Positions 16,912 to 63,623 of a stretch of 64,000 bases of DNA are shown piece by piece. Position numbers and translations under genes: made by a program. The notes beneath the pieces were generated by a model. It saw only the letters and a program-made list of their open reading frames with translations, did no database searches and was not told where the DNA came from. The DNA comes from Oscillospiraceae bacterium (GTDB taxonomy: Bacteria > Bacillota > Clostridia > Oscillospirales > Ruminococcaceae), in NCBI GenBank assembly GCA_017828975.1, contig JAGAJN010000022.1, forward strand, positions 53,554-117,553. Reading direction: 5' to 3'. The stretch's first letter is position 1. The number at the start of each line of letters is the position of its first letter.

Positions 16912-17010
16912 TATACTAAGAACCAATTAAAAAGTGAAAAAAATCAAGCAAAAACTTGCGTATATGGTTTTTGTGCAGATTTTTTTAGACTTTTATTGGT
17001 TCTTAGTATT
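16912..17010 (+). repeat. Palindromic element copy 1 (ACTAAGAACC subtype)
   Basis: An inverted-repeat element of about 98 bases. The ends ATACTAAGAACCAAT and ATTGGTTCTTAGTAT pair perfectly. Inner arms AAAAAAATC/GATTTTTTT and GCAAAAAC/GTTTTTGTGC pair, leaving the loop TTGCGTATATG. It lies between the ybaK promoter and ribosome site, so the ybaK mRNA would start with this hairpin. Copy 8 at 63522 is nearly identical. Confidence 0.85.
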
Positions 17011-17020
17011 GTATATATCT

Positions 17021-17049
17021 ATTATATCACAAAATGATTACAGTTGCAA
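17021..17049 (-). promoter_or_regulatory. Promoter of ybaK, upstream of the palindromic element
   Basis: On the minus strand TTGCAA (17049-17044), 17 bases, TATAAT (17026-17021). Transcription would start near 17014, about five bases before the palindromic element begins. Confidence 0.7.
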
Positions 17050-17083
17050 TGGTAATTGTAATTGAAATGTAAACTAATTAATG

Positions 17084-17112
17084 TTGAAATGTTACAGTAA
17101 ATGTGGTATTAT
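17084..17112 (+). promoter_or_regulatory. Promoter of the PstS-like lipoprotein gene
   Basis: TTGAAA (17084-17089), 17 bases, TATTAT (17107-17112), 38 bases before the ATG. Confidence 0.75.
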
Positions 17113-17149
17113 ATTCCTAGAAGCTTATCAATGAATAGGAGCTGGTATT

Positions 17150-19546
17150 ATGAATAAAAACAAGGCTGCTGCACTTTTTCTTGCGGTACTTATGGCAGTT
17201 TCGGCAACGGGCTGTTCTTCCACAATTACTTCAGAGGACGGAGAAACGTCGGAAATAAACTCTTATTCCGAGGAAACAACTGAGTCCGAAACCGCCGCTT
17301 CGGAAATTTCCGAAACTGTCACCGAACCCATAGACAGCGACCTCGCAGAGCTTGAATATCTCAAAAACAATTTCCCCGAATTTGACGGCTCAACTTCGGC
17401 AATACCGCTTGAAGCGTCCTTCCACTCAAAGATATTCGGCATATCCGAGGAAGAAGCAAAAGCTCAGGTCTATCACACCAAGACACATGAAGCATTCAAT
17501 CGGTTTATGAAGGGCGAGGTGGACATTGTACTGACCGTTCCCATGACCGATGAACAGGAGCAGCAGGCGAAGGACAAGGGTGCGGAAATGACCCCCGTGG
17601 CAATGGAGGGCTTTGTGTTCTGCGTGAACAAAAACAATCCTGTTGAAAGCCTGACCATGCAGCAGATAAAGGACATTTACTCGGGCAAGATAACCAACTG
17701 GAAGGACGTTGGCGGCGAGGATATGGCTATCCTTGCATATCAGCGAAATCAGGATTCGGGCAGCCAGACCCTGATGAACAAGTTTATGGGAGATACTCCG
17801 CTGATGGACGCACCCACCGAGCTTGTTCCTATGGCTATGGGCGAGCTGATGGACGCCGTGGCGGTCTACGATAATGCTGCGGGTGCCATCGGTTACTCTG
17901 TTTACTCCTATGCGGCGCAGATGTACGCAAACACCAAGGACGTTAAATTCATTGCCGTGGACGGCGTTGCACCGTCAAACGAAACTATGGAAAACGGCAG
18001 CTATCCTCTGCTTTCGGTCACATATGCACTTTATGACGGAACTCTCCCCGAGGACGGTCCCGTTAAGCGAATGGTGAAGTGGATGACATCTCCCGAGGGT
18101 CAGCAGGCGGCAAGAGAAGCAGGCTATATCCCCGCAAACGGCGGAAGCTCCGAGGATATATTCACACCCCTTCTTGACACTTTGGGAACGGGAATGAAGC
18201 GTCCCGACGGATATACCGTATCCCCGAGATGTGACGAAGCGGGGGACGCTTTTGAAATAGGCATTATAAAGGCTATCCCCACCGAGGAAATACTTGCCGA
18301 GCCTTATGATGAGGGCTGGGAATATGACGGGAAAATATCTCACGGCATCTCTTATGAGAAAGAGAAAACCTTCACAGGCGTTACCTTTGAAAATTCCATA
18401 AAGGACGAAAAGGTAAGTGCCGCGGTAAATGACTGGCTGAACACAAACTATGCGGAGATGGAAAGCCGTTTTGACCCCGAAAAAGAGAATTACTCATTGG
18501 GCTATTTCAAATATTATCTTTCCGAAAATGAAACGGTGTCTTACAACACTCCTGTTTTTGTTGATGCAATATTCAGAAACGGTTACCTGTCACTTACTTT
18601 GAGAGCCCCTGACGGAATGGCAGACGAGGACGGTTCTCAGCGTTCAGCTGTATTTGACCTGAAAACGGGCGAAATGTTAAAGCTTTCGGATATGTTCTTT
18701 GAGGGAACGGATTTCCTGACTAGGCTCAACAGTCTTATTGAAGAAGAAGTAAATATGCCCTATGGTGAGCCTGTCAGGGAATATGCGGGGCTGAGAGAGG
18801 GTATCTATGATTTTGACCTTAACACTCTGGTGCTTGACCTTAACAATCCTTACACGGAATATCAGACCTACATTTACTATTACAATGAAATGATGGGTGA
18901 TATGGTTACCGCTGCCAGACGGGATATAAGCGGAATGTTTGAGGACGAGGTGCAGGCGAAGCTGAATACCGTTGTCGACACCGAATATACCGAGCCTGTT
19001 TACACTCAGGATACGGGCTTTGTTTACTCTTATTTCGGAGATGACACAGCACTTATTGACAGCAAAACAGCCGAAAGAATAAACGGTGAAATTGATAAGG
19101 CTACGGAAAACAAGCTGCTTGTTGACAGCTTAAAGAAGAATCTCCAACTGCTTTACGAGATAGAAGATTTTGACAAATTCGTTTCGGAAGCTACTGTTCG
19201 TGTAAGTGCAACTGTTTACGGTGATATTGGCTACACTGTTGACATGGAAGCGTATATGCTTGCGCATGCGGGAATTTACTATGACATTGACAGCGGCAGG
19301 CTGCTCACTCCCGATGATTTTCTAAAGGACGGCTGGAGAGAAGCGTCTGTCTGGGAATATGAAAAGGCAACGGGCGAGCTTATGGGCGACTGCGATGCAC
19401 CCGACATTTCCGACAGGGCAATCACTATGATAAACGGCATTACATACTATCGTGATGACGGGATTATAGGCGTTCGCTTCTCCGCTCATGCAGATGAGGA
19501 CGGCTTCTATACCGTAAATGTTCCTAAGGAATATCTCGTTGAATAA
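17150..19546 (+). CDS. Lipoprotein: PstS-like binding domain fused to DUF3298-like region
   Basis: A 798-residue exported lipoprotein (signal peptide with lipobox ATGC at about residue 24, then a Ser/Thr/Glu-rich linker). Residues about 80-330 resemble phosphate-binding PstS, with MQQIKDIYSGKITNWKDVGG, the RNQDSGSQTLMNKF ligand loop and AIGYSVYSYA. Residues about 420-798 resemble two RsiV/DUF3298-type beta units (SAVFDLKTGEMLKLSDMFF; YDIDSGRLLTPDDFLKDGW). No pst transporter genes are nearby, so it may be a sensor or binding protein rather than a transport component. It is followed by a terminator and then an ECF sigma/anti-sigma pair. Confidence 0.8.
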   Translation: MNKNKAAALFLAVLMAVSATGCSSTITSEDGETSEINSYSEETTESETAASEISETVTEPIDSDLAELEYLKNNFPEFDGSTSAIPLEASFHSKIFGISEEEAKAQVYHTKTHEAFNRFMKGEVDIVLTVPMTDEQEQQAKDKGAEMTPVAMEGFVFCVNKNNPVESLTMQQIKDIYSGKITNWKDVGGEDMAILAYQRNQDSGSQTLMNKFMGDTPLMDAPTELVPMAMGELMDAVAVYDNAAGAIGYSVYSYAAQMYANTKDVKFIAVDGVAPSNETMENGSYPLLSVTYALYDGTLPEDGPVKRMVKWMTSPEGQQAAREAGYIPANGGSSEDIFTPLLDTLGTGMKRPDGYTVSPRCDEAGDAFEIGIIKAIPTEEILAEPYDEGWEYDGKISHGISYEKEKTFTGVTFENSIKDEKVSAAVNDWLNTNYAEMESRFDPEKENYSLGYFKYYLSENETVSYNTPVFVDAIFRNGYLSLTLRAPDGMADEDGSQRSAVFDLKTGEMLKLSDMFFEGTDFLTRLNSLIEEEVNMPYGEPVREYAGLREGIYDFDLNTLVLDLNNPYTEYQTYIYYYNEMMGDMVTAARRDISGMFEDEVQAKLNTVVDTEYTEPVYTQDTGFVYSYFGDDTALIDSKTAERINGEIDKATENKLLVDSLKKNLQLLYEIEDFDKFVSEATVRVSATVYGDIGYTVDMEAYMLAHAGIYYDIDSGRLLTPDDFLKDGWREASVWEYEKATGELMGDCDAPDISDRAITMINGITYYRDDGIIGVRFSAHADEDGFYTVNVPKEYLVE

Positions 19547-19571
19547 CGGCTGACTTATTGCAAAGATTTTT

Positions 19572-19609
19572 ATCTGCCAATGCAGAAAACTGTGTTGGCA
19601 GATTTTTTT
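19572..19609 (+). terminator. Terminator of the PstS-like gene
   Basis: ATCTGCCAA (19572-19580) pairs with TTGGCAGAT (19595-19603), followed by a run of T. Confidence 0.9.
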
Positions 19610-19636
19610 GTAACGTTTTCCTTGTTTTAACGTCTA
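19609..19636 (+). promoter_or_regulatory. ECF-sigma-type promoter of the sigma/anti-sigma operon
   Basis: TGTAAC (19609-19614), 16 bases, CGTCTA (19631-19636). The AAC of the -35 box and CGTC of the -10 box match the pattern of Bacillus ECF factors such as sigma-X, -W and -M, and differ from the housekeeping promoters elsewhere in the window. It lies 45 bases before the sigma gene, so autoregulation is likely. Confidence 0.65.
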
Positions 19637-19680
19637 AATATCGGAAGGCTTCCAATACACCAACAGAAAGGGGGCAGAGT

Positions 19681-20175
19681 ATGGACGACATCGGAAAAAT
19701 TTATGAGCTTTACGGCGGGCGGCTGGTTTCCTATCTTGTGGGAATGACGGGCGATCCGTCCCTGGCGGAGGAGCTGGCTTCGGAGGTTTTTGTTCGGGCA
19801 ATGACGGGTATCAGCGGCTTTCGCGGGAACGGCTCCGTGTTTACATGGCTCTGCGCCATTGGGAAAAATCTGTATTTCGATCATCTGAAAAAGCAGGGGA
19901 AAAGGGTAGATATAGAGGATATTCCCGAGCTGTCGGACGGGTGCGATATTCAGTCGGAATTGTCCGATAAACAGCTTTGCAAAAGTGTCCACCGACGGCT
20001 TCATCAGCTGGACGAGCCTTACAAGGAGGTGTTCACCCTGAGAATTTTCGGGGAGCTGACCTTTGGCGAGATAGGCAGTCTGTTCGGTCGGTCGGACAAC
20101 TGGGCGAGGGTGACCTTTTTCCGTGCGAAGGCAAAGATAATCGATGGGCTAAAGGAGGACGGCTATGAGCTTTGA
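19681..20175 (+). CDS. ECF-type RNA polymerase sigma factor
   Basis: A 164-residue sigma-70 family factor with region 2 (DPSLAEELASEVFVRAM, FTWLCAIGKNLYFDHLKK) and region 4 (YKEVFTLRIFGELTFGEIGSLFGRSDNWARVTFFRAK) joined by a short linker. ATG 19681 follows AAAGGGGG by 8 bases and fits the usual length; a longer reading frame upstream runs through the promoter. It overlaps the zinc-finger anti-sigma gene by 11 bases. It probably directs its own operon from the promoter at 19609. Confidence 0.92.
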   Translation: MDDIGKIYELYGGRLVSYLVGMTGDPSLAEELASEVFVRAMTGISGFRGNGSVFTWLCAIGKNLYFDHLKKQGKRVDIEDIPELSDGCDIQSELSDKQLCKSVHRRLHQLDEPYKEVFTLRIFGELTFGEIGSLFGRSDNWARVTFFRAKAKIIDGLKEDGYEL

Positions 20176-21403
20176 AAAAAATATCTGCAATATTGTCGGC
20201 GATCTTATCCCGCTTTATTGCGATGATATGTGCAGCGCTGAGAGCAGGTCGGCGGTGGAGGAGCATACGGCGGAATGTGAAAAATGCAGGCAGCTTCTGG
20301 AAAGCTGTTCGGCGGAATTAAAAAATGTGTCCCAAAAAACGGACATAAAATCTCGGAAAATTATAGGCAGAGTCAGGAGAAAATTTCTTGTGACGGCTGT
20401 GGTTTCGGGGATAGCGGTGCTGGTTGCCGTGCTTTTCGGCATATATCATCTAACGGGGAAAAATATGGGATATTTCCTTGCGGACAAGCGGCTTTTCGGC
20501 ATATCCGAGGAAAAGCTTATGGAAAACAGCATTGATATTATCAAGTACGGCGTGACGACTGCCGCTCTTGAAACAGATGATATTGAATGTGATCTTGCGG
20601 AATATAACAGGCTTCGGCGGGAGCTGTATCAGGCTGAAATACTGCCGCAAAGCTTTTCCGTCACATATGACCGCACGAAAAGTGACATTACGGGCGAGGT
20701 GGTTTTCAATGGCAAGGCGAAAACCGAAAGCTATGACCTGACGGTGCAGCTTCGCACCCGACGAATGAGAGCGGGCGTTTATCTGGTAACGGATATTGTG
20801 GTCTGGTGGGAAAATTATTATCCCGACAGAGCGGCGTATGCAGAACTTGACACGTCAGACGCATTTTATATCACAAGCAGAAAATATCCCGATGAAACTG
20901 CATTAAGAGATTTAGAAACACGTTCACCGCTGATGACAGTTCAGGCAGCCGACCCTCCCAAGGCAGGCAGATATTATCTTGACGGAAACAAAAACGGGCT
21001 ATATATGGAGCTTTCCGAGGACGGCAAAGCCACCTGCGGCGGAATGACCTTTGAGGAGTTTTACAGCTTTTATGAGGAAAAATACGGCACCGACGGCACT
21101 CTGCCGTACAGCGGGATATTCGAGCTTATGTTTGCTCAAAAACACGGTGAGGAGGTTTACTGTTCGGCGGTTGAGAGAGATCTTGAGCAGGTTGGGGAGG
21201 ACGGAAAGCTGTTTATCTATGAAAGCGAAAGGCTGCTGATATTTGCCCCGCCGCCCCCCGAACGCTTTGCCGCAGAGGATTATTTTGAGGTTTGCTTCCG
21301 GTATATCGGTGACATTGGCTTGGAATATTCGTCGGACGGTACCATAACAGATATTCCCTCGGGCAGGGAAGATGAGCCGATGAAATTTATTCGGATAGAT
21401 TGA
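20165..21403 (+). CDS. Zinc-finger anti-sigma factor with large extracytoplasmic domain
   Basis: A 412-residue membrane protein. Residues 1-45 hold a zf-HC2 anti-sigma domain (CDDM...HTAECEKC, giving the HxxxCxxC cluster). One membrane helix follows at about 75-95 (FLVTAVVSGIAVLVAVLFGIYHL). The remaining ~310 residues face outside and carry no motif that I know. It should hold the preceding sigma factor inactive until an outside signal is sensed. The gene overlap (11 bases) is typical for such pairs. The outer domain is longer than usual for the family. Confidence 0.85.
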   Translation: MSFEKNICNIVGDLIPLYCDDMCSAESRSAVEEHTAECEKCRQLLESCSAELKNVSQKTDIKSRKIIGRVRRKFLVTAVVSGIAVLVAVLFGIYHLTGKNMGYFLADKRLFGISEEKLMENSIDIIKYGVTTAALETDDIECDLAEYNRLRRELYQAEILPQSFSVTYDRTKSDITGEVVFNGKAKTESYDLTVQLRTRRMRAGVYLVTDIVVWWENYYPDRAAYAELDTSDAFYITSRKYPDETALRDLETRSPLMTVQAADPPKAGRYYLDGNKNGLYMELSEDGKATCGGMTFEEFYSFYEEKYGTDGTLPYSGIFELMFAQKHGEEVYCSAVERDLEQVGEDGKLFIYESERLLIFAPPPPERFAAEDYFEVCFRYIGDIGLEYSSDGTITDIPSGREDEPMKFIRID

Positions 21404-21428
21404 CATTTCTCCAAAAGTGTAGTATTAT
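21400..21428 (+). promoter_or_regulatory. Promoter of the MATE gene, overlapping the anti-sigma stop
   Basis: TTGACA (21400-21405), 17 bases, TATTAT (21423-21428). The -35 box overlaps the last codon and stop of the upstream gene. Confidence 0.8.
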
Positions 21429-21441
21429 ATAAATAAGGGAA

Positions 21442-21476
21442 ATACCGCCAACGCCCCGGCGGTATTTCTTTGCTTT
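21442..21476 (+). terminator. Leader hairpin/terminator before the MATE gene
   Basis: ATACCGCC (21442-21449) pairs with GGCGGTAT (21458-21465), followed by TTCTTTGCTTTT. It may end read-through from the anti-sigma gene. Because it lies after the MATE promoter it would also act on MATE transcripts. Confidence 0.65.
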
Positions 21477-21490
21477 TGGAGGATTTTTAT

Positions 21491-22879
21491 ATGAGTGACA
21501 AAAAATATGAGATAGATATGTGCTCGGGAGCAATACTTCCGAAGCTTCTGCGGCTGACGCTTCCGCTGATGCTCTCAAGCGTTTTGCAGCTGCTGTTCAA
21601 TGCGGCGGATATTATCGTCGTGGGAAATTTTGCAAGTGAGAATTCGCTGGCTGCGGTGGGTTCCACGACTGCACTTATTAACCTGATGACCAACCTTTTT
21701 CTGGGATTATCCACGGGCGCAAATGTCCTTTCTTCGCATTATATGGGCGCAAAGGACAGCGAAAACGTGAGCAAAACTGTGCATACCTCGATTTTTCTGA
21801 GCATGGCCTGCGGACTTTTTCTGACAGCTGCGGGCGTGATATTTGCGGAAAAGCTGCTGACACTTATGCAGACGCCCGAAGAGGTTCTCGGTTTGTCTGC
21901 CACCTATCTGCGGATATATTTTGTGGGAATGGTCGCAATGATGATATACAACTTCGGCAGTTCACTGCTGCGTTCAAAGGGCGACACCAAGCGTCCGCTT
22001 TATTTTCTCACATTGTCGGGCGTGATAAATGTTATCCTGAATATGATTTTCGTTATCCCGTTGAAAATGGACGTTGCGGGTGTTGCGCTGGCTACGGTCA
22101 TTTCACAGTGCATCTCGGCAGGGCTTATACTTCGCTGTCTTATGCTGGAGGAGGACTCATTCCGCTTCGATTTCAAAAAGCTTGGACTTGACCGAAGCAT
22201 TGCGGGGAAGATACTTCGGATAGGTATTCCCGCAGGCTTTCAGGGCGTGGTTTTCTCCCTTTCAAATGTTGTGATACAGTCCTCGGTAAACAGCTTCGGA
22301 CCGATAGTTATGGCGGGAAGTGCGGCTGCGGCGAGCATTGAGGGCTTTGTTTGGGTGTCCATGAACGCCTTCTCACAGGGTGCGCTTACCTTTTCAAGCC
22401 AGAACATCGGCGGAGGAAAATACAGCAGGATAAACAGGATTGCGGTGATCTCCTGCACCTGTGCGGCGGTGACGGGGCTTGTTTTCGGAAATCTCGTCTG
22501 TCTGTTCGGGGAACAGCTTTTGAGGATATATGACCCCCGTCCCGAGATAATCGAGCCGGGACTTACCCGAATGTACCTTGTCTGCGGACTGTACCTTTGC
22601 TGCGGTCTGATGGACAGCATTGTGGGAACTATCAGGGGAATGGGATATGCTATTACGCCCACCATAGTTTCGCTTCTCGGTGCCTGCGGACTGCGCATAT
22701 TGTGGATATTCACCATCTTCCAAATCCCCGAATATCACACGGAATTTATGCTGTTTTTGTCCTATCCCATATCGTGGACAATTACTTTTTTGGTGCATCT
22801 TGTTTGCTTCATATTTATGCGGCGGAAATTCCCGAAGGAAGATGCGGAATCAGTGTTGAATGTTGAGTGTGTAAATTGA
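21491..22879 (+). CDS. MATE family efflux transporter
   Basis: A 462-residue protein with about twelve membrane helices, in the MATE/NorM-DinF group that exports drugs or metabolites using a sodium or proton gradient. Typical stretches are GAILPKLLRLTLPLMLSSVLQ, ADIIVVGNFASENSLAAVGS, the mid-protein GIPAGFQGVVFSLSNVVIQ and CCGLMDSIVGTIRGMG. ATG 21491 follows GGAGG by 8 bases. Substrate unknown. Confidence 0.93.
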   Translation: MSDKKYEIDMCSGAILPKLLRLTLPLMLSSVLQLLFNAADIIVVGNFASENSLAAVGSTTALINLMTNLFLGLSTGANVLSSHYMGAKDSENVSKTVHTSIFLSMACGLFLTAAGVIFAEKLLTLMQTPEEVLGLSATYLRIYFVGMVAMMIYNFGSSLLRSKGDTKRPLYFLTLSGVINVILNMIFVIPLKMDVAGVALATVISQCISAGLILRCLMLEEDSFRFDFKKLGLDRSIAGKILRIGIPAGFQGVVFSLSNVVIQSSVNSFGPIVMAGSAAAASIEGFVWVSMNAFSQGALTFSSQNIGGGKYSRINRIAVISCTCAAVTGLVFGNLVCLFGEQLLRIYDPRPEIIEPGLTRMYLVCGLYLCCGLMDSIVGTIRGMGYAITPTIVSLLGACGLRILWIFTIFQIPEYHTEFMLFLSYPISWTITFLVHLVCFIFMRRKFPKEDAESVLNVECVN

Positions 22880-22894
22880 AAATATAGAGTAAAA

Positions 22895-22930: not shown

Positions 22931-22941
22931 TATGTTTGTAT

Positions 22942-24390: not shown

Positions 24391-24417
24391 ATTTTCATTC
24401 CCCCGCAATTATTTGGC

Positions 24418-24522
24418 TATACTAAACACCATTTAAATCACGGAGAAGAAATCGGCACGAAAAACTTGCGTATATGGTTTTTTGTGCCGAGAGATTCCCG
24501 TGATTAATGGCTGTTTAGTATT
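24418..24522 (+). repeat. Palindromic element copy 2 (ACTAAACA subtype)
   Basis: About 103 bases. Ends TACTAAACA/TGTTTAGTA pair, then ATCACGG/CCGTGAT, then CGGCAC/GTGCCG, then AAAAAC/GTTTTT around the loop TTGCGTATATG. The inner GGCAC/GTGCC pairs differ from GGCGT/ACGCC in copies 3 and 6, which is a compensated change. It lies between the promoter at 24529-24557 and the radical SAM gene start. Confidence 0.85.
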
Positions 24523-36368: not shown

Positions 36369-36431
36369 TAAAAACAGATTCAAAAAAGAAAAGCAGACCT
36401 GCAATCGCAAGTCTGCTTGTGTTCATTTTAT
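36369..36431. repeat. Duplicated terminator block, copy A
   Basis: About 63 bases matching 38626-38688 at roughly nine positions in ten. It includes the hairpin AAGCAGAC...GTCTGCTT and ends in GTTCATTTTA, which in copy B contains the last codons of the kinase gene. It is therefore a partial duplicate of the kinase gene's 3' end. Confidence 0.75.
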
Positions 36432-38472: not shown

Positions 38473-38574
38473 ATACTAAACACCTATTGAATTATTGAAA
38501 TCTCTCACCGCAAAATCCATATATACAAGATTTGGCGGCGATTTCTTTTACATAATTCTAATGCTGTTTAGTAT
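38473..38574 (-). repeat. Palindromic element copy 5, the most diverged
   Basis: Read on the minus strand: TACTAAACA/TGTTTAGTA ends, CGCCGC/GCGGTG inner stem, AAATC/GATTT closing the loop TTGTATATATG. The changes from the other copies keep the pairing. An AAAGGAGGAAC ribosome-like site follows it at 38449-38459 without a start codon, which suggests remodelled leader DNA. The gap 38281-38680 holds copies 4 and 5 and the promoter at 38601, and no gene. Confidence 0.75.
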
Positions 38575-38640: not shown

Positions 38641-38688
38641 CAAAAGAAAAGCAGACCTGCAATAGCAAGTCTGCTTTTGTTCATTTTA
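38626..38688. terminator. Terminator of the kinase gene (duplicated block, copy B)
   Basis: On the minus strand AAGCAGACTTG...CAGGTCTGCTT followed by TTCTTTT, just after the kinase stop codon. The block recurs at 36369-36431. Confidence 0.8.
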
Positions 38689-41380
38689 CTTGTTCACGAA
38701 TATTTTCGGATACCTCTCTGTATATTCCCCGAGCTTCATATTGGTCGTTGATCTCATCTATGGCAGCAATAATCTTACTGCACTTTTCATGATCCTGCAT
38801 CTCAAAGTACACATCAAGCATACAGTTAAGAATTTCCGCTTTCTTATCAATATACGAAAGAGCATTCGGATATTTTTCACATATCTTTACAGCCTCATTC
38901 AGCTTTGCAATACTGCTGTCATAATCAAAATGGTAGTACAGACAATTCGCAGCAGGAATATAGAAAATATCTATCAGTTCAAGCTCGGTCGGAAATGCTT
39001 TCTTTGCGATGACAAATGCTTTGTTCAGACAATCTGCCGTTTTTTTGGCTTTTTTTTCGCATAGTGTATAGTACCAGGCATTCGTCATGTAAAAATAGCA
39101 GATATTCTCGTTATCCTCCTTTTTCAATGATTCTTTTGACTTTCTGAGTATATCACAGATTAGCTTTTTTTCCTGCGGATAGCTTCGTATCAGTACGGAT
39201 GCTTGGGAAAAATATAACTTCAGAAGCTTATTATCTGCACAGCTTACTTTTTCCGTATGGCGAATAGATTTTTCTATTGCTGAGAGCATTTTATCAAGAT
39301 AATATTCTTCCTTGCGGTTCTCGGTAACATATCCGCCGCCAAGCATGACATCATAATATGTTCCCCACATATCATAATACACGGCAATATTATAGTGCAG
39401 AGGATTTTTTGAAACATACTCCTTTGCATTTTTTATGACCGTTTTTATCTGTTCGGCATTGTTAAGACCGCTGTATATATCGACGATCGAACCGTAAAGT
39501 TCCATTATCTGCTCATTGGGTAAATCATTCCAATCCCACATTCTCATCGCTTCGGCAATTACGGGATGAACACGAACTCTGTCATCAAAATAAATCCAGC
39601 CCTGACTGCTGAGATTCAAAAGATCGGGGATATTTATCACCTTCAGAATATCGCAAAAAAGCTTTGTTTCAAATCCTCTGACACCCAACAGCGCCAGCGT
39701 TTTTAGTGCCGTTACATGACACTCGGGCATATTTCCTGACTTAAATAGTTCAGAAATTATCCTGCCGATAGTAGCATATACTTCTTCCCCGTCTTTTATG
39801 TTGCCGATCTTATCATAGGAATAATGCGTGAATCCCTCTTTCTTTATCAGATCAACAGCCTTCATTGCCGAAATACAGCCCGACGATATCTGTCTTGCAA
39901 TAAGTTCAATAACAAGGGTATGTCCCTCTGTAAGCTCAATGATATTGTCAAAGGCTTTTTTTTCTTCTTTGGACATTTGTCTGCCAAGATCAATGGAAAT
40001 CAGCTTATGCAGTTCGTCTTTGTTTTCTATTGCTTCTATTGTCATAACAGGGTAACTGTTTTTTGGTATGTTATTTCGGGTAACGACTATGGTATCATAT
40101 CCTATAGATAATATGCTGTTAAGCTCTTTTGTCACTCTGTCCGTAAAATTGTCAATAACAAGCAGAACCTTCTTTCCGCTGCAAATATTCTTTACAGCAG
40201 TGATTTTTCTTTCATAATAGTCATCAATACTTTCTCCCGAATATCTGCTAATCGTACTGATATGTATCTGATCATCGTCGGATATGGTATGCTTTATATC
40301 GCCTTCATATTCGAGATAGAGCATTACCTCATATTCGTCCCGATTATCATGGATAAATTTGCGTATCAATGTGCTTTTTCCGATTCCGCCCACACCGTTT
40401 ATGAAAAGAACATTGTTTGCTTTAAGACGTTTGGATATTTCCATCAGTTCATTTTCTCTGCCTACAAAATTGGGAGTGACAGGGGGCAACAGCGGAACGA
40501 TAAATTCTTTATTTTCAAGCTCTTCTACGATCTTATCAATAAGCTTTACAACACTTTCCATATCGGGAAAACGGTTTTTCGGAGATGACCGCAGTGTATT
40601 TCTGAAAAGCTTTGCAAAAAGGCTTTGCACCTCGGGACGAGTGATGTATTTCTCATATTTCTGACATTTGTCAAAGGGATATTTTGAAAATCCCCGATGC
40701 TCATTATCCTCGGAATGTCTGCCGAAAATTTGGTAAAATACGATCTCGCCTAATGTATAAATATCGGTCGAATAAGATATCTCACCGCTGTAAATGTTCA
40801 TCTGCTCGGGAGCTGCCCATTCTCTTGTATAGGATATTCCCTGTGACGATAATGAACCTATCTCTCTTATGCTGTCAAAGTCGATAAACTCAACTATCTG
40901 CGTAATGGTATCATCGGGAGCATTCTGCATAATAAAGATATTTTCGGGTTTCAGGTCAAGGCAGAGAAATCCCATTTTATGATAATATTTTACCGTGTTT
41001 GCAACAGTTCTGCAAATACGCATAAATTCGGCAGGAGATATTTCCGAAAGTTTGTCAAGGGTAGTCCCGTTATAGCAGGAAACGTCAATATATGCAGTCC
41101 CGTCCGCTTCAAAAATATTGCTGACGGGAGGCGTCTGATTATTAAGACAGGAATACTGACGTATCTGATTCTGTCTTTTTCCCGAATCAATAAACCTCTT
41201 TTTTCCGTCCTCAAAATCATAGGTGTTCTGCGGTGCATATTCTTTAAGAATACATTTTGATACAAAACTATTTTCGGAACGTTCCGCCAGATAAGCAATA
41301 CAGGACGCACCTCTGCCGATAATATCAATTATCCTGTACCTGCGATCATCAGTATTGATCACATCACCGATATTCTTCAT
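38681..41380 (-). CDS. Protein kinase-STAND NTPase-TPR fusion, element cargo
   Basis: An 899-residue three-part protein. Residues about 15-285 are a Ser/Thr kinase: glycine loop GRGASC (22-27), Lys46 in ILKEY, catalytic LDLKPEN (141-147), DFD in place of DFG (167-169) and AAPEQ (189-193). Residues about 305-560 are an NB-ARC-like STAND NTPase: Walker A GVGGIGKST (329-337), Walker B KKVLLVIDN (403-411) and TR at 434-435. The C-terminal ~300 residues are helical pairs of TPR type, the usual sensor part of STAND proteins. STAND proteins act in phage sensing and in signalling. The nearest gene, 41429-42571, is a likely partner. The effector could be the kinase itself. Confidence 0.85.
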   Translation of the reverse strand: MKNIGDVINTDDRRYRIIDIIGRGASCIAYLAERSENSFVSKCILKEYAPQNTYDFEDGKKRFIDSGKRQNQIRQYSCLNNQTPPVSNIFEADGTAYIDVSCYNGTTLDKLSEISPAEFMRICRTVANTVKYYHKMGFLCLDLKPENIFIMQNAPDDTITQIVEFIDFDSIREIGSLSSQGISYTREWAAPEQMNIYSGEISYSTDIYTLGEIVFYQIFGRHSEDNEHRGFSKYPFDKCQKYEKYITRPEVQSLFAKLFRNTLRSSPKNRFPDMESVVKLIDKIVEELENKEFIVPLLPPVTPNFVGRENELMEISKRLKANNVLFINGVGGIGKSTLIRKFIHDNRDEYEVMLYLEYEGDIKHTISDDDQIHISTISRYSGESIDDYYERKITAVKNICSGKKVLLVIDNFTDRVTKELNSILSIGYDTIVVTRNNIPKNSYPVMTIEAIENKDELHKLISIDLGRQMSKEEKKAFDNIIELTEGHTLVIELIARQISSGCISAMKAVDLIKKEGFTHYSYDKIGNIKDGEEVYATIGRIISELFKSGNMPECHVTALKTLALLGVRGFETKLFCDILKVINIPDLLNLSSQGWIYFDDRVRVHPVIAEAMRMWDWNDLPNEQIMELYGSIVDIYSGLNNAEQIKTVIKNAKEYVSKNPLHYNIAVYYDMWGTYYDVMLGGGYVTENRKEEYYLDKMLSAIEKSIRHTEKVSCADNKLLKLYFSQASVLIRSYPQEKKLICDILRKSKESLKKEDNENICYFYMTNAWYYTLCEKKAKKTADCLNKAFVIAKKAFPTELELIDIFYIPAANCLYYHFDYDSSIAKLNEAVKICEKYPNALSYIDKKAEILNCMLDVYFEMQDHEKCSKIIAAIDEINDQYEARGIYREVSENIREQVK

Positions 41381-48063: not shown

Positions 48064-49014
48064 ATGATGAATGATAATGCTTCAATAATAGTGGCTCTGT
48101 GCAGTCATCTCTGTGCGGACAGCTGCCTCCCCTTAGAGCCGTCCGAGTGGACGAAGCTTGCCGATAAAATGATAGCTCAGGAGCTTCGGCCAAAGGATAT
48201 TCCCGAGCTTTCCGATGAAGACATGAAGCAGTATTTCGGATACAGTGAGGAAGATATTGACCGAATAAAAAGGCTGCTTGACCGTTCGGGGAGCCTTACC
48301 TTTGAGTTGGAAAAGCTCTCATCTATGGGGATAAGGATAATCACACGCGCCGACAAGGGCTACCCAAAGGCACTTAAAGCCAAGCTCAAAGGCAGCTGCC
48401 CTCCGCTGTTTTATTTTGCGGGAGATCTGTCCCTGCTTGAACAGAAAACGGTGGGCTTTGTCGGTTCAAGAACGGTGGGCGATGAAGATACAGTCTTTGC
48501 GGAAAATATGGTCAGCAAAATAAATCAGCACGGGTTCGGAGTTGTATCGGGCGGAGCAAAGGGAATAGACAGCATATCCTCCGCCGCTTCCCTTGCAAAC
48601 GGCAGCTTCTGTATTGAGTACATCTCCGACTCATTTATACGGAAGATAAAGAAAAAAGAAGTCATCACCGAAATACAGGACGGAAAGCTTCTCCTTATGT
48701 CTATGGCAAAGCCCGATGCAGGCTTTAATGCCGGTATGGCAATGCAGCGCAACAAGTACATCTATGCTCAGTCTGAAGTCACCATTGTAGTGAAATCCGA
48801 CTACAACAAGGGCGGAACATGGGGAGGAGCGACCGAGGCACTAAAAAAGGAGTATTGCCCGGTCCTCTGTCGCGACCACAAGAAATATCCCGGAAATATG
48901 GGACTGATCAAGCTTGGAGCTGTTCCGATAGGCGATAGCTGGGACGGAAATGTTGACAATATCAGCGAGCTAATGCCTGATGTTGGTGAACAGCTTTCAA
49001 TTTTTGATGAATAA
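48064..49014 (+). CDS. DprA/SLOG-type DNA-processing protein
   Basis: A 316-residue DprA-like protein. The Rossmann core shows VGFVGSRTVGDEDTVFA and GVVSGGAKGIDSISSAASL, the features of DprA/SMF, and a later NKGGTWGGATEAL. The N-terminal ~85 residues are helical (YFGYSEEDIDRIKRLLDRSG). Classical DprA loads RecA on incoming DNA, but this copy is tied to a helicase-PRTase gene and is more likely a dedicated partner than the housekeeping protein. ATG 48064 or 48067 follows AAAGGAT; it is one base beyond the helicase stop. Confidence 0.85.
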   Translation: MMNDNASIIVALCSHLCADSCLPLEPSEWTKLADKMIAQELRPKDIPELSDEDMKQYFGYSEEDIDRIKRLLDRSGSLTFELEKLSSMGIRIITRADKGYPKALKAKLKGSCPPLFYFAGDLSLLEQKTVGFVGSRTVGDEDTVFAENMVSKINQHGFGVVSGGAKGIDSISSAASLANGSFCIEYISDSFIRKIKKKEVITEIQDGKLLLMSMAKPDAGFNAGMAMQRNKYIYAQSEVTIVVKSDYNKGGTWGGATEALKKEYCPVLCRDHKKYPGNMGLIKLGAVPIGDSWDGNVDNISELMPDVGEQLSIFDE

Positions 49015-49016
49015 AA

Positions 49017-49054
49017 ACAACGGACTTGTCAGCTTGGCGGCAAGTCCGTTGTTT
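49017..49054. terminator. Bidirectional terminator between dprA-like and ABC genes
   Basis: AACAACGGACTTG (49017-49029) pairs with CAAGTCCGTTGTT near 49041-49053, with A-rich and T-rich flanks. Confidence 0.85.
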
Positions 49055-49061
49055 GCTATTA

Positions 49062-49868
49062 TCAATTCCCGGAGCTTTTATAAAATCTTATGCTGAACCG
49101 CCAGAACAGATATGCAATCAGGTACATTACAATTCCCACGGCAGGCGTGAGATACATAAATATTTCGGGATAATCGGACATATCGTCCTTTCTGAGAAGA
49201 TACTGCGCAGGAAAATAATTTACAAAAGCAAAGGGCATAACATATATCATAAAGAACTGTATTGCCTTGTGGAAAATGCTTATGGGATAGCCTGCAAATT
49301 TTCGCATATTCCAGTAGATAAGCCCTTTCAGGCTGTTCGTCTGAAGCAGATAAATGTTCAGCGTGGCAAGAAAAAGAAATACCGCTCCTTGAATCAGAAC
49401 GCCGCCTGCAACGGTGAAAATATAATACACAGCATTGTACATATTCCACCTGATACCCACCTTTCCAGCGGAGATAAGAAACAATGTAATCCCTAAACCA
49501 CCATGTCCCAAAGCGGCAAACCAGTCGGAATTTACAAATATTATCTGAAACAGAAGCCCTCTCGGACGGAGAATAAACCTGTCAAAATTGCCGCTGCGGA
49601 CGGTGCTTCCGAAGTCCCGCAGACCTGTGAAAAATATTATCATAATGCCGTAGGTCAGGAACAGCAGACTGAACAAAAACAGCATTTCGTAAATGTTCCA
49701 GCCGTTAAGGTCGTCAAATTTCAGAAGCGTAAACCATATTACGATTATTCCCGTAGCTTCACGAAGGAACACAGCCAGCGATTTCAGCACAGCGTCAACA
49801 CGGTACTGAAACCATGACTTTGCGGTAGTTTTTGTGTACATACCGATCAGGTGCAAAACGTCTTTCAT
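49062..49868 (-). CDS. ABC-2 type permease, second
   Basis: A 268-residue membrane protein of the ABC-2 class with about six helices (IIFFTGLRDFGSTVRSGNFDRFILRPRGLLFQ between helices is typical of the DUF990-like group). It lies four bases after the other permease gene and forms the membrane part of an exporter with the two ATPases upstream. It is the last gene of the operon. Confidence 0.85.
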   Translation of the reverse strand: MKDVLHLIGMYTKTTAKSWFQYRVDAVLKSLAVFLREATGIIVIWFTLLKFDDLNGWNIYEMLFLFSLLFLTYGIMIIFFTGLRDFGSTVRSGNFDRFILRPRGLLFQIIFVNSDWFAALGHGGLGITLFLISAGKVGIRWNMYNAVYYIFTVAGGVLIQGAVFLFLATLNIYLLQTNSLKGLIYWNMRKFAGYPISIFHKAIQFFMIYVMPFAFVNYFPAQYLLRKDDMSDYPEIFMYLTPAVGIVMYLIAYLFWRFSIRFYKSSGN

Positions 49869-56955: not shown

Positions 56956-57000
56956 TTAAGAAAATACTTTTCGTCTTTTGGAGAAAGGAATGTTGCATAG

Positions 57001-58038: not shown

Positions 58039-58065
58039 TAATCAACCGAAAGGAATGATATTCAA

Positions 58066-58611: not shown

Positions 58612-58629
58612 GAGAGAGGAGCAAAAAAT

Positions 58630-59691
58630 ATGACCTTTGAAGAATTTATTCTGGAAGCCCGTGAAATGGGCGCTTCCGATATACATCTGACCGTCGGCGC
58701 ACCTACCGTTGCACGTATTAACGGCGAGCTTTGCAAGTTCAAGGATCTGTCCGACACGGTGGTAAACAGAACTATCCTTGCAATACTCAACGCCGAGCAG
58801 GAGCAGCAGCTCACCAAGGGCAATGACATCGACTTCTGTTTCCAGCTGGAAAACGGTGCAAGACAGCGTGTCAACGTGTTCAGACAGAGCGGCCGCCTTG
58901 CCTGCTGTATCAGACTTCTGAACGATAATATTCCCACTTTGGAATCGCTGAAAATGCCTTCTGTTCTGTCGGAGCTGGCTGAAAGGAAGAGGGGACTTAT
59001 CCTTGTAACAGGTCCTACCGGTTCGGGTAAATCCACCACTCTGTCCGCTATGGTCGACCACATCAACAGAACTCGTGCGTGCCATATCATCACCATTGAG
59101 GACCCTATCGAGTATAAGTATGTTCAGGACAAGGCTACCATTCATCAGCGTGAGGTCGGAAAGGACGTTACCTCCTTCAGCTACGCCCTGAGAAGCGCAC
59201 TGAGAGAGGACCCCGATGTTATCCTCGTCGGTGAGATGCGTGACTATGAAACTATTTCCCTGGCAATGACCGCCGCCGAAACAGGACATCTGGTGCTTGC
59301 TACACTGCATACCTCGGGTGCTGCGGAAACCATCGACAGAATCATCGATGCTTGTCCTCCTCACGCGCAGGATCAGGTAAGAGCTCAGCTTGCAAATATG
59401 TTCCAGGGCGTTGTTTCCCAGCTGCTTCTTCCCACAGCGGACAAGAAGAGCCGTGTTGCCGCTCTTGAAATACTCACGGGAACAGACGCTGTCAAGAACC
59501 TTATCAGGTCGAACAAGGTTCCTCAGATGGAATCCGTTATGCAGACAGGCTCCCGTCAGGGAATGTGTTCTCTGCAGGACAGCCTTGTTAGGTTGTACAA
59601 GAAAAACATCATCTCCTACGAAACTGCTATGGAGTATGCCACCGACAAGGCAGAGCTGGAGAAGGCTCTCCGTGCAGGCGCAGGCTTCTGA
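58630..59691 (+). CDS. pilT: PilT-type twitching motility ATPase
   Basis: A 353-residue PilT, the hexameric ATPase that retracts type IV pili. Motifs are Walker A GPTGSGKSTT, the Asp box (TIEDPIEYKY), Walker B ILVGEMRDYET, His box (GHLVLATLHT), and the N-terminal MGASDIHLTVG. It lacks a separate PilB extension gene nearby. The gene begins 18 bases after the CobU-like gene, with AGAGAGGAG before ATG. The co-located diguanylate cyclase suggests c-di-GMP control of pili. Confidence 0.93.
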   Translation: MTFEEFILEAREMGASDIHLTVGAPTVARINGELCKFKDLSDTVVNRTILAILNAEQEQQLTKGNDIDFCFQLENGARQRVNVFRQSGRLACCIRLLNDNIPTLESLKMPSVLSELAERKRGLILVTGPTGSGKSTTLSAMVDHINRTRACHIITIEDPIEYKYVQDKATIHQREVGKDVTSFSYALRSALREDPDVILVGEMRDYETISLAMTAAETGHLVLATLHTSGAAETIDRIIDACPPHAQDQVRAQLANMFQGVVSQLLLPTADKKSRVAALEILTGTDAVKNLIRSNKVPQMESVMQTGSRQGMCSLQDSLVRLYKKNIISYETAMEYATDKAELEKALRAGAGF

Positions 59692-59868
59692 TCTTTCGTG
59701 TTTTTAGCCGTCCATCAGGAAGGTGTCGGTAAAAAATATCGGCACCGAGCGGCAAACGCTGCCATTTCGCAAATCAGCCAACGAAATGACAAAGGAGTCG
59801 CCTTTATATGAGGTGCAATAAATAAGTTTTCGCAATCACGTTAATGACAAATACATTGGATAAATGAT

Positions 59869-59916
59869 AAAGCTGCCACAGGAAATCGTTCAAAGCGATG
59901 CTGTGGCAGCTTTTTT
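59869..59916 (+). terminator. Terminator of the GGDEF-pilT operon
   Basis: AAGCTGCCACAG (59869-59880) pairs with CTGTGGCAGCTT (59901-59912), with an inner ATCG/CGAT stem, followed by a T run. The stretch 59692-59868 holds no gene that I can support. Confidence 0.9.
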
Positions 59917-59939
59917 AGGTTTGACCCGAATGGGGCGTA

Positions 59940-60042
59940 ATACTAAACACCCATTAATCACGGGAATCTCTCGGCGTAAAAAACCATATACGCAAGTTTT
60001 TTACGCCGATTTCTTCTCCGTGATTTAAATGGTGTTTAGTAT
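59940..60042 (-). repeat. Palindromic element copy 6
   Basis: ACTAAACACC subtype, read on the minus strand. Pairs: TACTAAACACCATT/AATGGGTGTTTAGTA, ATCACGG/CCGTGAT, CGGCGT/ACGCCG, AAAAAAC/GTTTTTT; loop TTGCGTATATG. It is followed directly by copy 7. Confidence 0.9.
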
Positions 60043-60043
60043 A

Positions 60044-60146
60044 ATACTAATCCCTCATTAAAGTATTGACAAAAAAGCTGCACAAAACCCATAAACGCAA
60101 GCTTTTGCACAGATTTTTTCTCTGCTTTATAATCGGGGATTAGTAT
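60044..60146 (-). repeat. Palindromic element copy 7 (ACTAATCCC subtype)
   Basis: Read on the minus strand: TACTAATCCC...GGGATTAGTA ends, ATTATAAAG/CTTTAAT arms, TGCAAAA/TTTTGTGC inner stem, loop TTGCGTTTATG. The outer sequence differs from copies 1-6 but both arms change together. With copy 6 it makes a tandem pair sharing an ATA between them. Confidence 0.8.
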
Positions 60147-60171
60147 AACTCGGTGGTGAAAGTCCGAGAAA

Positions 60172-61398
60172 TCAGTTGACCTGCTTTTTCCCAAATATGC
60201 GATATGCCGATATTCCAAATAACACCGCCGCAACTAAAGCAAATACAGGCGTAAAAATGTACGGACGAATTACCAAACCGAACAGCTCAAACTGTATACT
60301 GTCTATAATACACCAGAATGCCATCATATTTGAAGGCAGCAGGCAGAACAGCTTATAGAGCCATACAATATCTTCGGAAACATTTAGCATCATAGGCGCA
60401 ATAATTATGACGGACATAATAACGATAGTTCCGGAAGGTGTTTTTATAGCTGCGGACAGCATAGCCGTAAGCGCCGCTGTCATAATGCACGCCGCAAAAA
60501 CGCTGACGGAATATAGAAGCGCACATTGTCCCATGGTAAGCGGATAGGACATCATCGGCACTTGAAGCTGTATTGCTGCATCTGCTCCGTCTGTGCCCCA
60601 TATTGCCATACATTCGGCATATGTAAGCACCGTGAGTATTACGGATAATCCTGCGGACAATGTAAAGCTTACAAACAGCTTTGCCCACACAAGCAGGCTT
60701 TTTCCGTGCTTTGAGGATAATATCAGGCTGTCAGCGCCGCTGGTGTATTCCCCCGAAAAAAGCGGTGCGAAAATTATTGCGGCAGCAACAGCGATAATAA
60801 TTCCAGTGGTGTACATTATTGCAAAAAATCTTGTGTATCCCTCGGACGCTTCAAATACAATGGGCTTTTCCACACCACTGTCCAACCCAATAACAGACTG
60901 CTTTGCCGCATCGCTCATATTGGTCTGCATGATTGCCTGCTCCTGTTTCTGACGGCGAATTTCATAGAAATTATCCGCCTGCTCCTTTGTCATATTCCCG
61001 AAAGTTTGGACGTCAAAAAGTTCCGACGATGTATTGTAAACGCTGCGGACTATGGAATATATTTCGCTGTATTTTCTTGCGTAATTTTCATATTCCTCGC
61101 TGTCGGTATATTTTTCGGCGGAATTCAGTTCAAGCTTTGAATATGCCTCGGAAGCCTCCATTATAAGCTCGGTGTCGATAGCCCGTCCCGACAGTTCCCT
61201 TGCATATTCAAGGTCTGTTTTCATATCGTCATATCGTGACATTACAGGCTCTCCGTTACTGTCGTAAATATAGCCGATTATCGTGCCGAACACGCTGAAT
61301 AATGACACTGCTGCGGCGAGTATCAGCGTTATTACCGCACCCTTGCGTTTAAAAATCTTTTTGTATTCATATGATACCAAATTCCAAAATGTATTCAT
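60172..61398 (-). CDS. ABC-2 type permease of the sigma-linked transporter
   Basis: A 408-residue membrane protein with one N-terminal helix (VITLILAAAVSLFSVFGTIIGYI), a ~130-residue extracellular loop, then five helices at about residues 190-400. That layout matches ABC-2 exporters with a large outer loop. It overlaps the ATPase gene by four bases. It is the last gene of the operon. Confidence 0.85.
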   Translation of the reverse strand: MNTFWNLVSYEYKKIFKRKGAVITLILAAAVSLFSVFGTIIGYIYDSNGEPVMSRYDDMKTDLEYARELSGRAIDTELIMEASEAYSKLELNSAEKYTDSEEYENYARKYSEIYSIVRSVYNTSSELFDVQTFGNMTKEQADNFYEIRRQKQEQAIMQTNMSDAAKQSVIGLDSGVEKPIVFEASEGYTRFFAIMYTTGIIIAVAAAIIFAPLFSGEYTSGADSLILSSKHGKSLLVWAKLFVSFTLSAGLSVILTVLTYAECMAIWGTDGADAAIQLQVPMMSYPLTMGQCALLYSVSVFAACIMTAALTAMLSAAIKTPSGTIVIMSVIIIAPMMLNVSEDIVWLYKLFCLLPSNMMAFWCIIDSIQFELFGLVIRPYIFTPVFALVAAVLFGISAYRIFGKKQVN

Positions 61399-62270
61399 TT
61401 GTTGTCAGTCCTTTCCTCTACGCTGAAATAATAAAGATACAGATCCTCAAGTGTCGCTTCTGTATTAACAGCATTTTCACAAGGCTTTTTATCACACACA
61501 AGCCGCAGAAATACGCCCTCCGCCGCATTTCGTGTGTTAATGATCGGATATTTTTCCGTCAGCATATCGGCAACATCCTGCGGCACGGTGCATTCCCACA
61601 CCTTGCCCCTTATCACTTCGATAATTTCATCAAGTGAGCCGCTGTGGATAAGCTGTCCGCTTTTCATTACGAGAATAGTGTCGGCAATATGTTCAATATC
61701 CGATACGATATGTGTCGATAACAGGATTATCCTGTCCGCACCCATTCGTGAAATCAGGTTGCGGAAACGCACTCTTTCCTTCGGGTCGAGTCCCGCCGTA
61801 GGCTCATCAAGGACAAGTATCTTCGGGTCGTTGAGCATTGCCTGTGCAATTCCAAGCCGCTGCTTCATTCCTCCCGAAAAGGTCTTTATCTTCTTTTTTG
61901 CTTCATTTTTCAGCGATACAAGCTCTAAAAGCTCGGTGGTTCTCACCTTTGCTTTCGCTTTGGGAAGACCTTTCAGTGCAGCAATATACATCATAAAATC
62001 CTGCGCCGTAAATTCGGGGTAATATCCGAAATCCTGCGGAAGATAGCCCAAGACGTCACGGTATTCCTCCCGTGAAACGTCAATGCCGTCATAGGAAATG
62101 CTTCCCGATGTGGGTTCAAGAATGCCGCACATCATTCGCATAAGCGTGGTTTTTCCTGCGCCGTTTGCACCGAGAAGTCCGTAAACTCCTTTTGTAAGGG
62201 TAAGCGAAATGCGGTCGCAGGCGATCTTACTGCCGTAATTTTTTGTTACTCTGTCAAGTGTGAGTTCCAT
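61395..62270 (-). CDS. ABC transporter ATPase of the sigma-linked transporter
   Basis: A 291-residue ATPase: Walker A GANGAGKTT, Q-loop YLPQDFGYYPEFT, signature FSGGMKQRLGIAQAML, Walker B ILVLDEPTAGLD and STHIV. A ~70-residue C-terminal extension ends the protein. It overlaps the membrane gene upstream by 17 bases. Confidence 0.95.
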   Translation of the reverse strand: MELTLDRVTKNYGSKIACDRISLTLTKGVYGLLGANGAGKTTLMRMMCGILEPTSGSISYDGIDVSREEYRDVLGYLPQDFGYYPEFTAQDFMMYIAALKGLPKAKAKVRTTELLELVSLKNEAKKKIKTFSGGMKQRLGIAQAMLNDPKILVLDEPTAGLDPKERVRFRNLISRMGADRIILLSTHIVSDIEHIADTILVMKSGQLIHSGSLDEIIEVIRGKVWECTVPQDVADMLTEKYPIINTRNAAEGVFLRLVCDKKPCENAVNTEATLEDLYLYYFSVEERTDNK

Positions 62271-62985
62271 AATAATTTGCTCCGTTCGTTATTTTTTTCA
62301 TAGTTAAAATAATTGTAACTGTCCCGAAAATGCACAGGGCAATACAGAAATTATTGCAGATATTTTCGGGTATTTTCATCTGAGAACCCTGCAAAAGTAT
62401 TCCCGATACGCTGACAAAAAGTGCCGATACACAGCTGATATATCCGCTCTCCTTACCTTTGAAGCGGCTAAATATAGCAAGGGATATTCCGTTTACCAAT
62501 AGAAAAGGCGTAAGAATATAAATTGCCGAATTTGCTATGCCAACAGGCGTAAATATTCCCGAGAGCAGAGTCAAGGCAGCGATTACCGCAAAGCTGACAG
62601 TACCCAGGATAAGCGTTCTTGCGCCCGTAAGCTGCGGCAGAGAAAACCTGCACGCCGTTTCAAGCTCGGTCATACCGTACATATTCGAGCGTGATATTTC
62701 CGAAGCGGTGAGCATTGCCAGAAAGGGTGTAAGGGAGGATATTATCCATACCGCAGGCAGTCCGATATACGAAGGAGCTTTCAGCGACATAAAGCATACC
62801 GTGAAAACCGCAGCGGCAACTATCAGTACCGAAGCTACCCACACACGCTTGCGGATATACTTTATCTGGGAAAATACAAACTGCGAAAAGCTCAATTTTG
62901 GATATGGCAGGGCGTTCAGAAATATTTCTTTTCGCTTTGGTTCCGGCGGCGAAAATGCTTCGTACAATTCCTTTTTAACATTCAT
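62254..62985 (-). CDS. Membrane protein between sigma factor and ABC genes
   Basis: A 243-residue protein with a ~45-residue cytoplasmic N-terminus (PKRKEIFLNALPYPKLSFSQ, then QIKYIRKRVW) and six hydrophobic helices. It overlaps the sigma gene by four bases and the ATPase gene by 17. Position suggests either a second permease-like subunit or a membrane regulator of the sigma factor; it has no zinc-finger anti-sigma motif. Confidence 0.75.
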   Translation of the reverse strand: MNVKKELYEAFSPPEPKRKEIFLNALPYPKLSFSQFVFSQIKYIRKRVWVASVLIVAAAVFTVCFMSLKAPSYIGLPAVWIISSLTPFLAMLTASEISRSNMYGMTELETACRFSLPQLTGARTLILGTVSFAVIAALTLLSGIFTPVGIANSAIYILTPFLLVNGISLAIFSRFKGKESGYISCVSALFVSVSGILLQGSQMKIPENICNNFCIALCIFGTVTIILTMKKITNGANYYGTHT

Positions 62986-63425
62986 TTCAATGCTCCTTTC
63001 AGCAGCTTTTTCATTTGGGCAAGGGCAGCCTTTTCAAGTCGATACACCGCAAAACGGGAAATTCCAAGAGTTTCTGCTGTTTCATTCACCGACATATCCG
63101 CAATATACCGCATTACAAGAACTTCGCGATGCTGTTCGCCCAGATTTTCAAGAGCCGTGCGGACTTCAACTTTTGTATCGCTTTTGTCGGAAAAATCCTC
63201 CGTCGGATAGTCGTCGGAAAGCTCTTCGGTCTGCTTTCGACGGAACATATCCGTGCAGAGATTTTTTGCGATCGTGAAGATATATGCGGCGTTTATGTCG
63301 GTATTCTGCGCAAAATACCTGAGAAAGGCTTCTTGGGTAATGTCCTCGGCAGAAGCGGAATTTCTCAGTCTGTAAAAGCAATAGCGGTATATTTTGTCGT
63401 ACAATTCTTCTATCTTCCGCAACAA
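62982..63425 (-). CDS. Sigma-70 family (ECF-like) factor with TTG start
   Basis: A 147-residue sigma factor: region 2 (LRNSASAEDITQEAFLRYFA, YIFTIAKNLCTDMFRR) and region 4 (LGEQHREVLVMRYIADMSVNETAETLGISRFAVYRLEKAAL). The start is TTG at 63425, 8 bases after AGGAGG; the second codon is also TTG. It heads the membrane/ABC operon, which it probably controls. Confidence 0.88.
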   Translation of the reverse strand: MLRKIEELYDKIYRYCFYRLRNSASAEDITQEAFLRYFAQNTDINAAYIFTIAKNLCTDMFRRKQTEELSDDYPTEDFSDKSDTKVEVRTALENLGEQHREVLVMRYIADMSVNETAETLGISRFAVYRLEKAALAQMKKLLKGALK

Positions 63426-63521
63426 CCCGAAAACCTCCTCTCATAATGTATAACGGATAACTGCTGTGAAATGTGCGGTGATTTATAAAGAATTGCAGAA
63501 AAATACCCGATATGTTGTTTT

Positions 63522-63623
63522 ATACTAAGAACCAATTAAAAAGTGAATAAAAAATCAAGCAAAAACTTGCGTATATGGTTTTTGCGCAGATTTTTTATCT
63601 ACACTTTTATTGGTTATTAGTAT
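63522..63623 (+). repeat. Palindromic element copy 8 (ACTAAGAACC subtype)
   Basis: Nearly the same as copy 1. ATACTAAGAACCAAT and ATTGGTTATTAGTAT ends (one mismatch), AAAAGTG/CACTTTT, AAAAAATC/GATTTTTT, GCAAAAAC/GTTTTTGCGC; loop TTGCGTATATG. It lies ~97 bases upstream of the sigma factor gene. Confidence 0.85.

Follow-up and report, generated by a model that had tools for sequence, protein, structure and literature searches.

Miniature inverted-repeat transposable elements (MITEs) are usually grouped by their ends, since it is the ends that the transposase reads. In the passages devoted to it in PMC2229807 and PMC3049150, RUP of the pneumococcus, found with IS630-Spn1, is described as an intergenic element of about 107 bp in 108-110 copies, with IS630-like end repeats, a TA target and insertions in the transposase genes of insertion sequences (IS). 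The corresponding part of PMC2229807 states that a functional motif of RUP at the DNA level had not been described by 2007, and it mentions that Correia elements can carry a site for integration host factor (IHF) and that NEMIS RNA was proposed as a substrate of RNase III. Eight palindromes of about 100 bp are described here from a 64,000-nucleotide stretch (the window) of contig JAGAJN010000022.1 of an Oscillospiraceae bacterium (assembly GCA_017828975.1, genome G000 below). Judged from their sequences, they are very probably non-autonomous, near-palindromic, TA-inserting MITEs mobilised in trans by transposases of the IS630 family. Unusually, one hairpin tip appears to be shared by families with unrelated ends. 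No account of these elements was found in the literature searched, most subscription journals being outside its coverage.

Ends, target site and candidate mover

The element extends from TACTAA to TTAGTAT, with one unpaired T at one end and a TA repeat flanking it. The arrangement TA-TACTAA…TTAGTA-T-TA is present in 71 of the 95 copies that passed the score limit with both end motifs intact (out of 219 distinct copies). Sites with and without a copy were compared, as the preliminary description had proposed, and at three of them one TA has become two: GAGT-TA-GGTATA, where the repeats L043, L258 and L226 are empty and L164 is filled; CCGCCA-TA-TACTCC, where the IS copy L215 and L273, with a diverged site, stand against L242, an element within an IS630 transposase gene; and CTGCT-TA-TCACAT (L196 empty, L168 filled). 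A weaker fourth comparison, L061 with L228, also fits TA duplication. In L275 a MITE lies inside the IS630 transposase gene (1405-1504 of this locus on contig C10 of the genus-mate genome G001), as is known for RUP in pneumococcus.

The same sites bear on the suggestion that the palindromes are REP/REPIN-like elements, which a Y1 (IS200/IS605-type) transposase would mobilise on single-stranded DNA with the loop as a recognition part. A hairpin with a conserved tip, high copy number and intergenic position would suit such elements; TA is duplicated on insertion, however, and the terminal repeats are common to IS630 elements, so that the REP-like mode is regarded as extremely improbable. In the favoured IS630 mode the transposase would bind the end repeats, excise the element and insert it at TA.

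The covariance-model search that had been suggested was carried out with models built from two subtype alignments (the subtypes were modelled apart, a joint alignment of all of them having hidden the stem; strands and models were merged by hand). At least about 61 copies were found in the source genome and at least about 90 in G001, the one other member of the genus in the genome collection, both counts being lower bounds with 150 candidates scored per genome. The 11-base loop occurs exactly 35 times in the source genome, 33 times inside elements and twice in ordinary sequence, against no occurrence of the reversed control. Among the 219 distinct copies the loop points forward in 198 and is inverted in none; 21 have no recognisable loop. 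Some copies are shared by both species at orthologous sites (L225) and others are not, therefore movement probably continued after the species split.

Copies lie almost exclusively between genes, which were called by a simple script. Out of 170 copies eight are at contig edges; of the other 162 three are in open reading frames, compared with 78% of TA sites, and 86 stand between co-directional, 37 between convergent and 36 between divergent genes. Random intergenic TA sites of the same loci predict about 85, 27 and 47, respectively, of 159.

A transposase with matching ends had been named as the thing to look for, and IS630-type elements with TACTAA ends are present in both genomes. The PF13358 search gave one such element and a fragment elsewhere in G000, and in G001 three matches, that is an unbroken element (L273), the MITE-interrupted element (L275) and a third gene (L271). 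The unbroken elements L273 and L041 are both 1,129 bp long with two frames, and their ends read TACTAAACACC… or TACTAATCTTC… (L273: TACTAAACACCG… and TACTAAACACCATTTAAA…; L041: TACTAATCTTC… and TACTAAACACCATTTAAA…). Compared with NF033545 (cut-off 100), the DDE halves reach 132 and 130 bits, and the helix-turn-helix halves stay below the cut-off with 68 and 54 bits, as expected for partial proteins. The frame is broken at the same place in both copies, presumably the frameshift of the IS630 family. Relatives of the transposase with TACTAA at both ends were found in G379 (92%) and G223 (79%), while some others among the ten loci inspected have one TACTAA end or none. An origin of the MITE by internal deletion of the IS is unsupported: the loop has no match within two mismatches in the two IS copies checked.

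The spread of the core was followed with a 64-position model, which includes the loop and thus favours loop-bearing elements, with at most 13 candidates scored per genome. The core is found in 27 of 396 genomes of the bacterial family (13 of 126 genera). A draw of 391 genomes from the class gave three with the core, of which two belong to the same bacterial family and the third (G564) has one weak, chance-like match. Transposase relatives are present in 6 of the 27 core-bearing and 9 of the 369 other genomes (Fisher p = 0.0002; p = 0.006 without G000 and G001), kinship being uncorrected and two draws of 396 genomes taken as the same set.

Several observations weigh against mobilisation by these transposases. 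In 21 of the 27 core-bearing genomes no transposase relative was detected, and an IS630 element with the same kind of ends as the MITEs is documented for G000 and G001 and not for most other core-bearing genomes. A DDE_3 search was empty in six of seven of those others, the two matches of the seventh having no TACTAA ends; the third IS630-type gene of G001 (L271) has no TACTAA end pair; and no parent element for AGTYAACGACAT ends was seen in the 11 loci examined. At one site (L196 against L265) presence and absence differ between the species with no clear TA.

The window copies, and one example of the tip discussed below, are as follows.

16913..17009, plus strand: copy 1, subtype B (ACTAAGAACC), 97 bp, loop TTGCGTATATG
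24419..24521, plus strand: copy 2, subtype A (ACTAAACACC), 103 bp, exact loop
36430..36520, plus strand: copy 3, subtype A, right end lost, exact loop
38296..38396, plus strand: copy 4, subtype A, loop TTGCATATATG
38473..38574, minus strand: copy 5, subtype A variant (GCCGC/GCGGT inner stem), loop TTGTATATATG
59940..60042, minus strand: copy 6, subtype A, exact loop, in tandem with copy 7
59978..60002, minus strand: tip example in copy 6, AAAAAAC-TTGCGTATATG-GTTTTTT (minus strand)
60044..60146, minus strand: copy 7, subtype C (ACTAATCCCC), loop TTGCGTTTATG, in tandem with copy 6
63522..63623, plus strand: copy 8, subtype B, exact loop

All eight palindromes lie within one base of the positions first given for them, and the three outer subtypes and the compensating changes of inner pairs were found as described. 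The ends ATACTAA (or a close form) and TTAGTAT had been ascribed to every copy; the right end TTAGTAT holds for seven and is lost from the copy at 36430. The loop, reported as kept or altered by one or two bases, is exactly TTGCGTATATG in five copies, one base off in two (38296 and 60044) and two bases off in one (38473). The seven complete copies measure 97-103 bp and copies elsewhere up to about 123 bp, which is within the size of MITEs (below about 200 bp). Copies 4 and 5 have orthologues in G001 (L225), that of copy 4 with the same flanks, and the probable orthologue of copy 3 (G001:C13:47466-47568) is collinear with them. Subtype C and related copies (L148, L187, L260, L262, L188, L144, L168, L004) have about 10-13 extra right-arm bases around GATTTTGAAATCTTTGATTTT. 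On the 117.5-kb contig all eight copies are within the last 48 kb, with none among the listed matches in the preceding 70 kb. Copy 1 is flanked by divergent genes for a tRNA-editing domain protein (minus strand) and a PBP-like domain protein (plus strand), and a gene with a protein kinase domain and an NB-ARC-type ATPase domain (38681-41380) adjoins two copies. A separate 25-bp inverted repeat with a 12-nt spacer, possibly a transcription terminator, is located at 49004-49065.

Stem covariation and the question of an RNA

Covariation of the stem is strong. It was counted in two alignments, one of 66 model matches (60 distinct rows, from 61 chosen sources) and one of 79 (69 distinct rows, from 71); both are model-fitted and hence lean towards structure, and the second includes L082 on both strands. 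In both alignments standard pairs fill 96% of the paired cells, and cells changed on both sides number 98 and 175 against shuffled means of 28.3 and 60.4, with none of 500 shuffles as high; slid controls were far lower. The covariation extends to inner pairs beyond the end repeats.

Two processes can produce such a pattern, the need for matching ends and template switching, and both may contribute to keeping the arms paired: a single transposase has to accept the two ends, and template switching can act from arm to arm at replication. Copies L133 and L103 differ in a single left-arm tract, where L133 complements its own right arm, and in subtype B the left arms of L082 and L095 each match their own right-arm variant in the same way. 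At least some of the covariation thus looks like multi-base copying between arms by template switching, a process which the pertinent part of PMC8794818 describes as a source of multi-base compensatory changes. Due to this copying, covariation alone is no proof of selection on the fold. The family is a natural data set for template switching, and covariation of this origin may be misread as evidence that an RNA structure is under selection.

The preliminary description had read the pattern as selection on a folded hairpin with a recognised loop, acting either as DNA (a MITE or REP-like element) or as RNA. The MITE part of this statement is supported by the well-defined ends, the duplicated TA target, the empty sites and an IS630-type element in the genome whose ends match; the REP-like part is disfavoured, and recognition of the loop is possible. 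As for RNA, the hairpin would act in cis on the processing, stability or regulation of mRNA; transposition would spread it, and its fold and loop would be the reason for its retention. The strong covariation, the conserved asymmetry of the internal loop and the conserved loop itself accord with this, and some window copies adjoin likely ribosome-binding sites. The orientation relative to co-directional neighbours is nevertheless balanced (45 same, 41 opposite), and distances to gene starts and stops are similar to those of random intergenic TA sites. Pairs of G·U do outnumber A·C in the model-fitted alignments (66 to 28 and 122 to 21), although part of this excess is built in, since the models prefer G·U, and in the second alignment one fixed U·G pair beside the loop makes up 67 of the 122 (55 to 21 without it); direct alignment of the arms of up to 143 distinct copies gave 111 G·T against 91 A·C (p = 0.18). 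Rfam yielded no match in the window at gathering score and, in nine loci, four matches (E 0.36-0.85), all below gathering. The loop of subtype A, moreover, gains private changes about as often as its stems. Because orientation is unbiased and no clear G·U excess appears in the direct comparison of arms, selection at the RNA level finds little support, and a cis-acting RNA is judged very unlikely.

A hairpin tip found with different ends

A scan of the genome collection for AAANCTTGCGTATATGGNTTT gave at least 93 stretches, among them palindromes with different ends and the loop at their centre; some of the stretches look like chance matches without a long palindrome. To avoid the bias of a loop search, two families were retrieved by their ends only: AGTYAACGACATT ends, at 42 places in five Lachnospiraceae metagenome-assembled genomes (MAGs), 30 of them fetched, and TTACAGCMATTCC ends, of which a clostridial MAG gave 16 places, every one fetched, and a second MAG none. 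Where both ends are present, the loop CTTGCGTATATGG or a close form is carried by 18 of 19 Lachnospiraceae loci and 11 of 12 clostridial elements, a match being a tip within two mismatches of CTTSCRTWTATGG; shuffled elements have such a tip in 22 of 4,200 and 6 of 2,400 cases, respectively. The misses are L303 (three mismatches) and L314 (a one-base deletion). The Lachnospiraceae family gave 21 rows, from which two second readings (L288, L290) were dropped; loci without a recognisable second end were not counted, and L292/L298 and L294/L295, with the same flanks in different MAGs, may be orthologues. In a Lachnospiraceae example compared with subtype A, both picked for exact loops, 25 of 46 left-arm positions are identical (shuffled mean 23.3) and 11 of 11 loop positions. 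At one locus each, similar tips occur in palindromes ending CAGTTGTAAA (L348) and CTCATCC (L346).

Such a distribution could arise with a functionless loop if recombination and template switching had recently reshuffled cores and ends, the loop then being of more recent origin than its association with the arms. L023, L212 and L192 are mosaics whose parts meet at the loop, and tandem dimers also occur. G347, with four loci, unites AGTCAACGACAT ends with the TCAAGC…GCGCAGA core of the TACTAA family and the tip TTTGCATATATGA, and the loop does vary, with 16 different tips among the 31 rows of the end-retrieved families. Mosaics would form in two steps, insertion of one element at the TA in the end of another and recombination of the resulting dimer through the loop that both halves have; a dimer such as copies 6 and 7 of the window could give them by deletion between the loops. 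Against lack of function, the commonest loop changes recur across end families (G/A at position six of CTTGCGTATATGG in all three, A/T at position eight in two of them), and the third T, ninth T and tenth A are constant in the 31 rows, which were limited to three mismatches. Reshuffling of a functionless loop is accordingly considered possible, albeit rather doubtful.

Within genomes the loop is not clearly protected after insertion. Private changes per site in ends, stem and loop are 0.64, 0.79 and 0.64 in subtype A (61 copies), 0.44, 0.31 and 0.09 in subtype B (23 copies) and 0.28, 0.48 and 0.18 in subtype C (20 copies), omitting 24 copies above 106 bp together with short or unclassed ones. 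Strict conservation of the loop is therefore unsupported in subtype A. Pooled, about 10 private changes at 33 loop sites stand against about 137 at 274 arm sites (one-sided p = 0.07), with which weak protection would be compatible.

Recognition of the loop is favoured by its being common to families with different ends. Since the tip persists while the ends can be exchanged, and since the loop shows no clear protection once an element has inserted, the constraint would fall on mobile lineages, and the tip module seems to be conserved in them across different ends. The tip CTTSCRTWTATGG on its A/T stem is tentatively proposed, with rather less than even confidence, as a functional DNA module shared by mini-transposons of different IS630-like transposases, exchanged between their ends and recognised by a host or transposition factor, so that it is conserved only in spreading lineages. 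The least certain part of the mechanism is that the tip core AAAnC-TTSCRTWTATG-GnTTT may be kept since it helps mobile lineages to spread, acting as DNA rather than as a cis-acting RNA. A different observation pulls the other way. Sub-lineages of subtype A in G001 (for example L230, L143, L149 and L182) carry, in several copies, an extra hairpin of 19-20 nt inside the loop and seem to have transposed as such; at least 15 copies of G001 are of this kind, and because they form sub-lineages an intact loop is not essential. As they have multiplied, the tip would be helpful at most. Were the module real, the loop rather than the ends would define the superfamily. A reading of the tip as phage cargo was set aside: viral contigs gave no match to the exact 21-base pattern, phage and plasmid records not having been searched.

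Comparison with known systems

The resident TACTAA-ended elements are members of the IS630 family (NF033545, PF13358), whereas the MITEs carry no gene and their tip is unmatched within two mismatches in two IS copies. In the part of PMC2229807 concerned with them, ERIC and Correia/NEMIS are likewise small elements, from other hosts, that bear inverted repeats, have TA at their ends and duplicate the target. The correction of quasipalindromes by template switching, as described in the source cited above, resembles the multi-base changes that turn one arm into the complement of the other; in the present case these are inferred from sequence and lie within mobile elements. RUP of the pneumococcus appears to be the closest known kind, and the elements probably work like RUP, compared here by description and not by sequence: both have a similar size and copy number, an intergenic position, IS630-type end repeats, a TA target and insertion into an IS transposase gene. 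They differ in host and in that here the tip core is common to families with unrelated ends, and a constant tip with differing ends suggests a second recognised part in bacterial mini-transposons.

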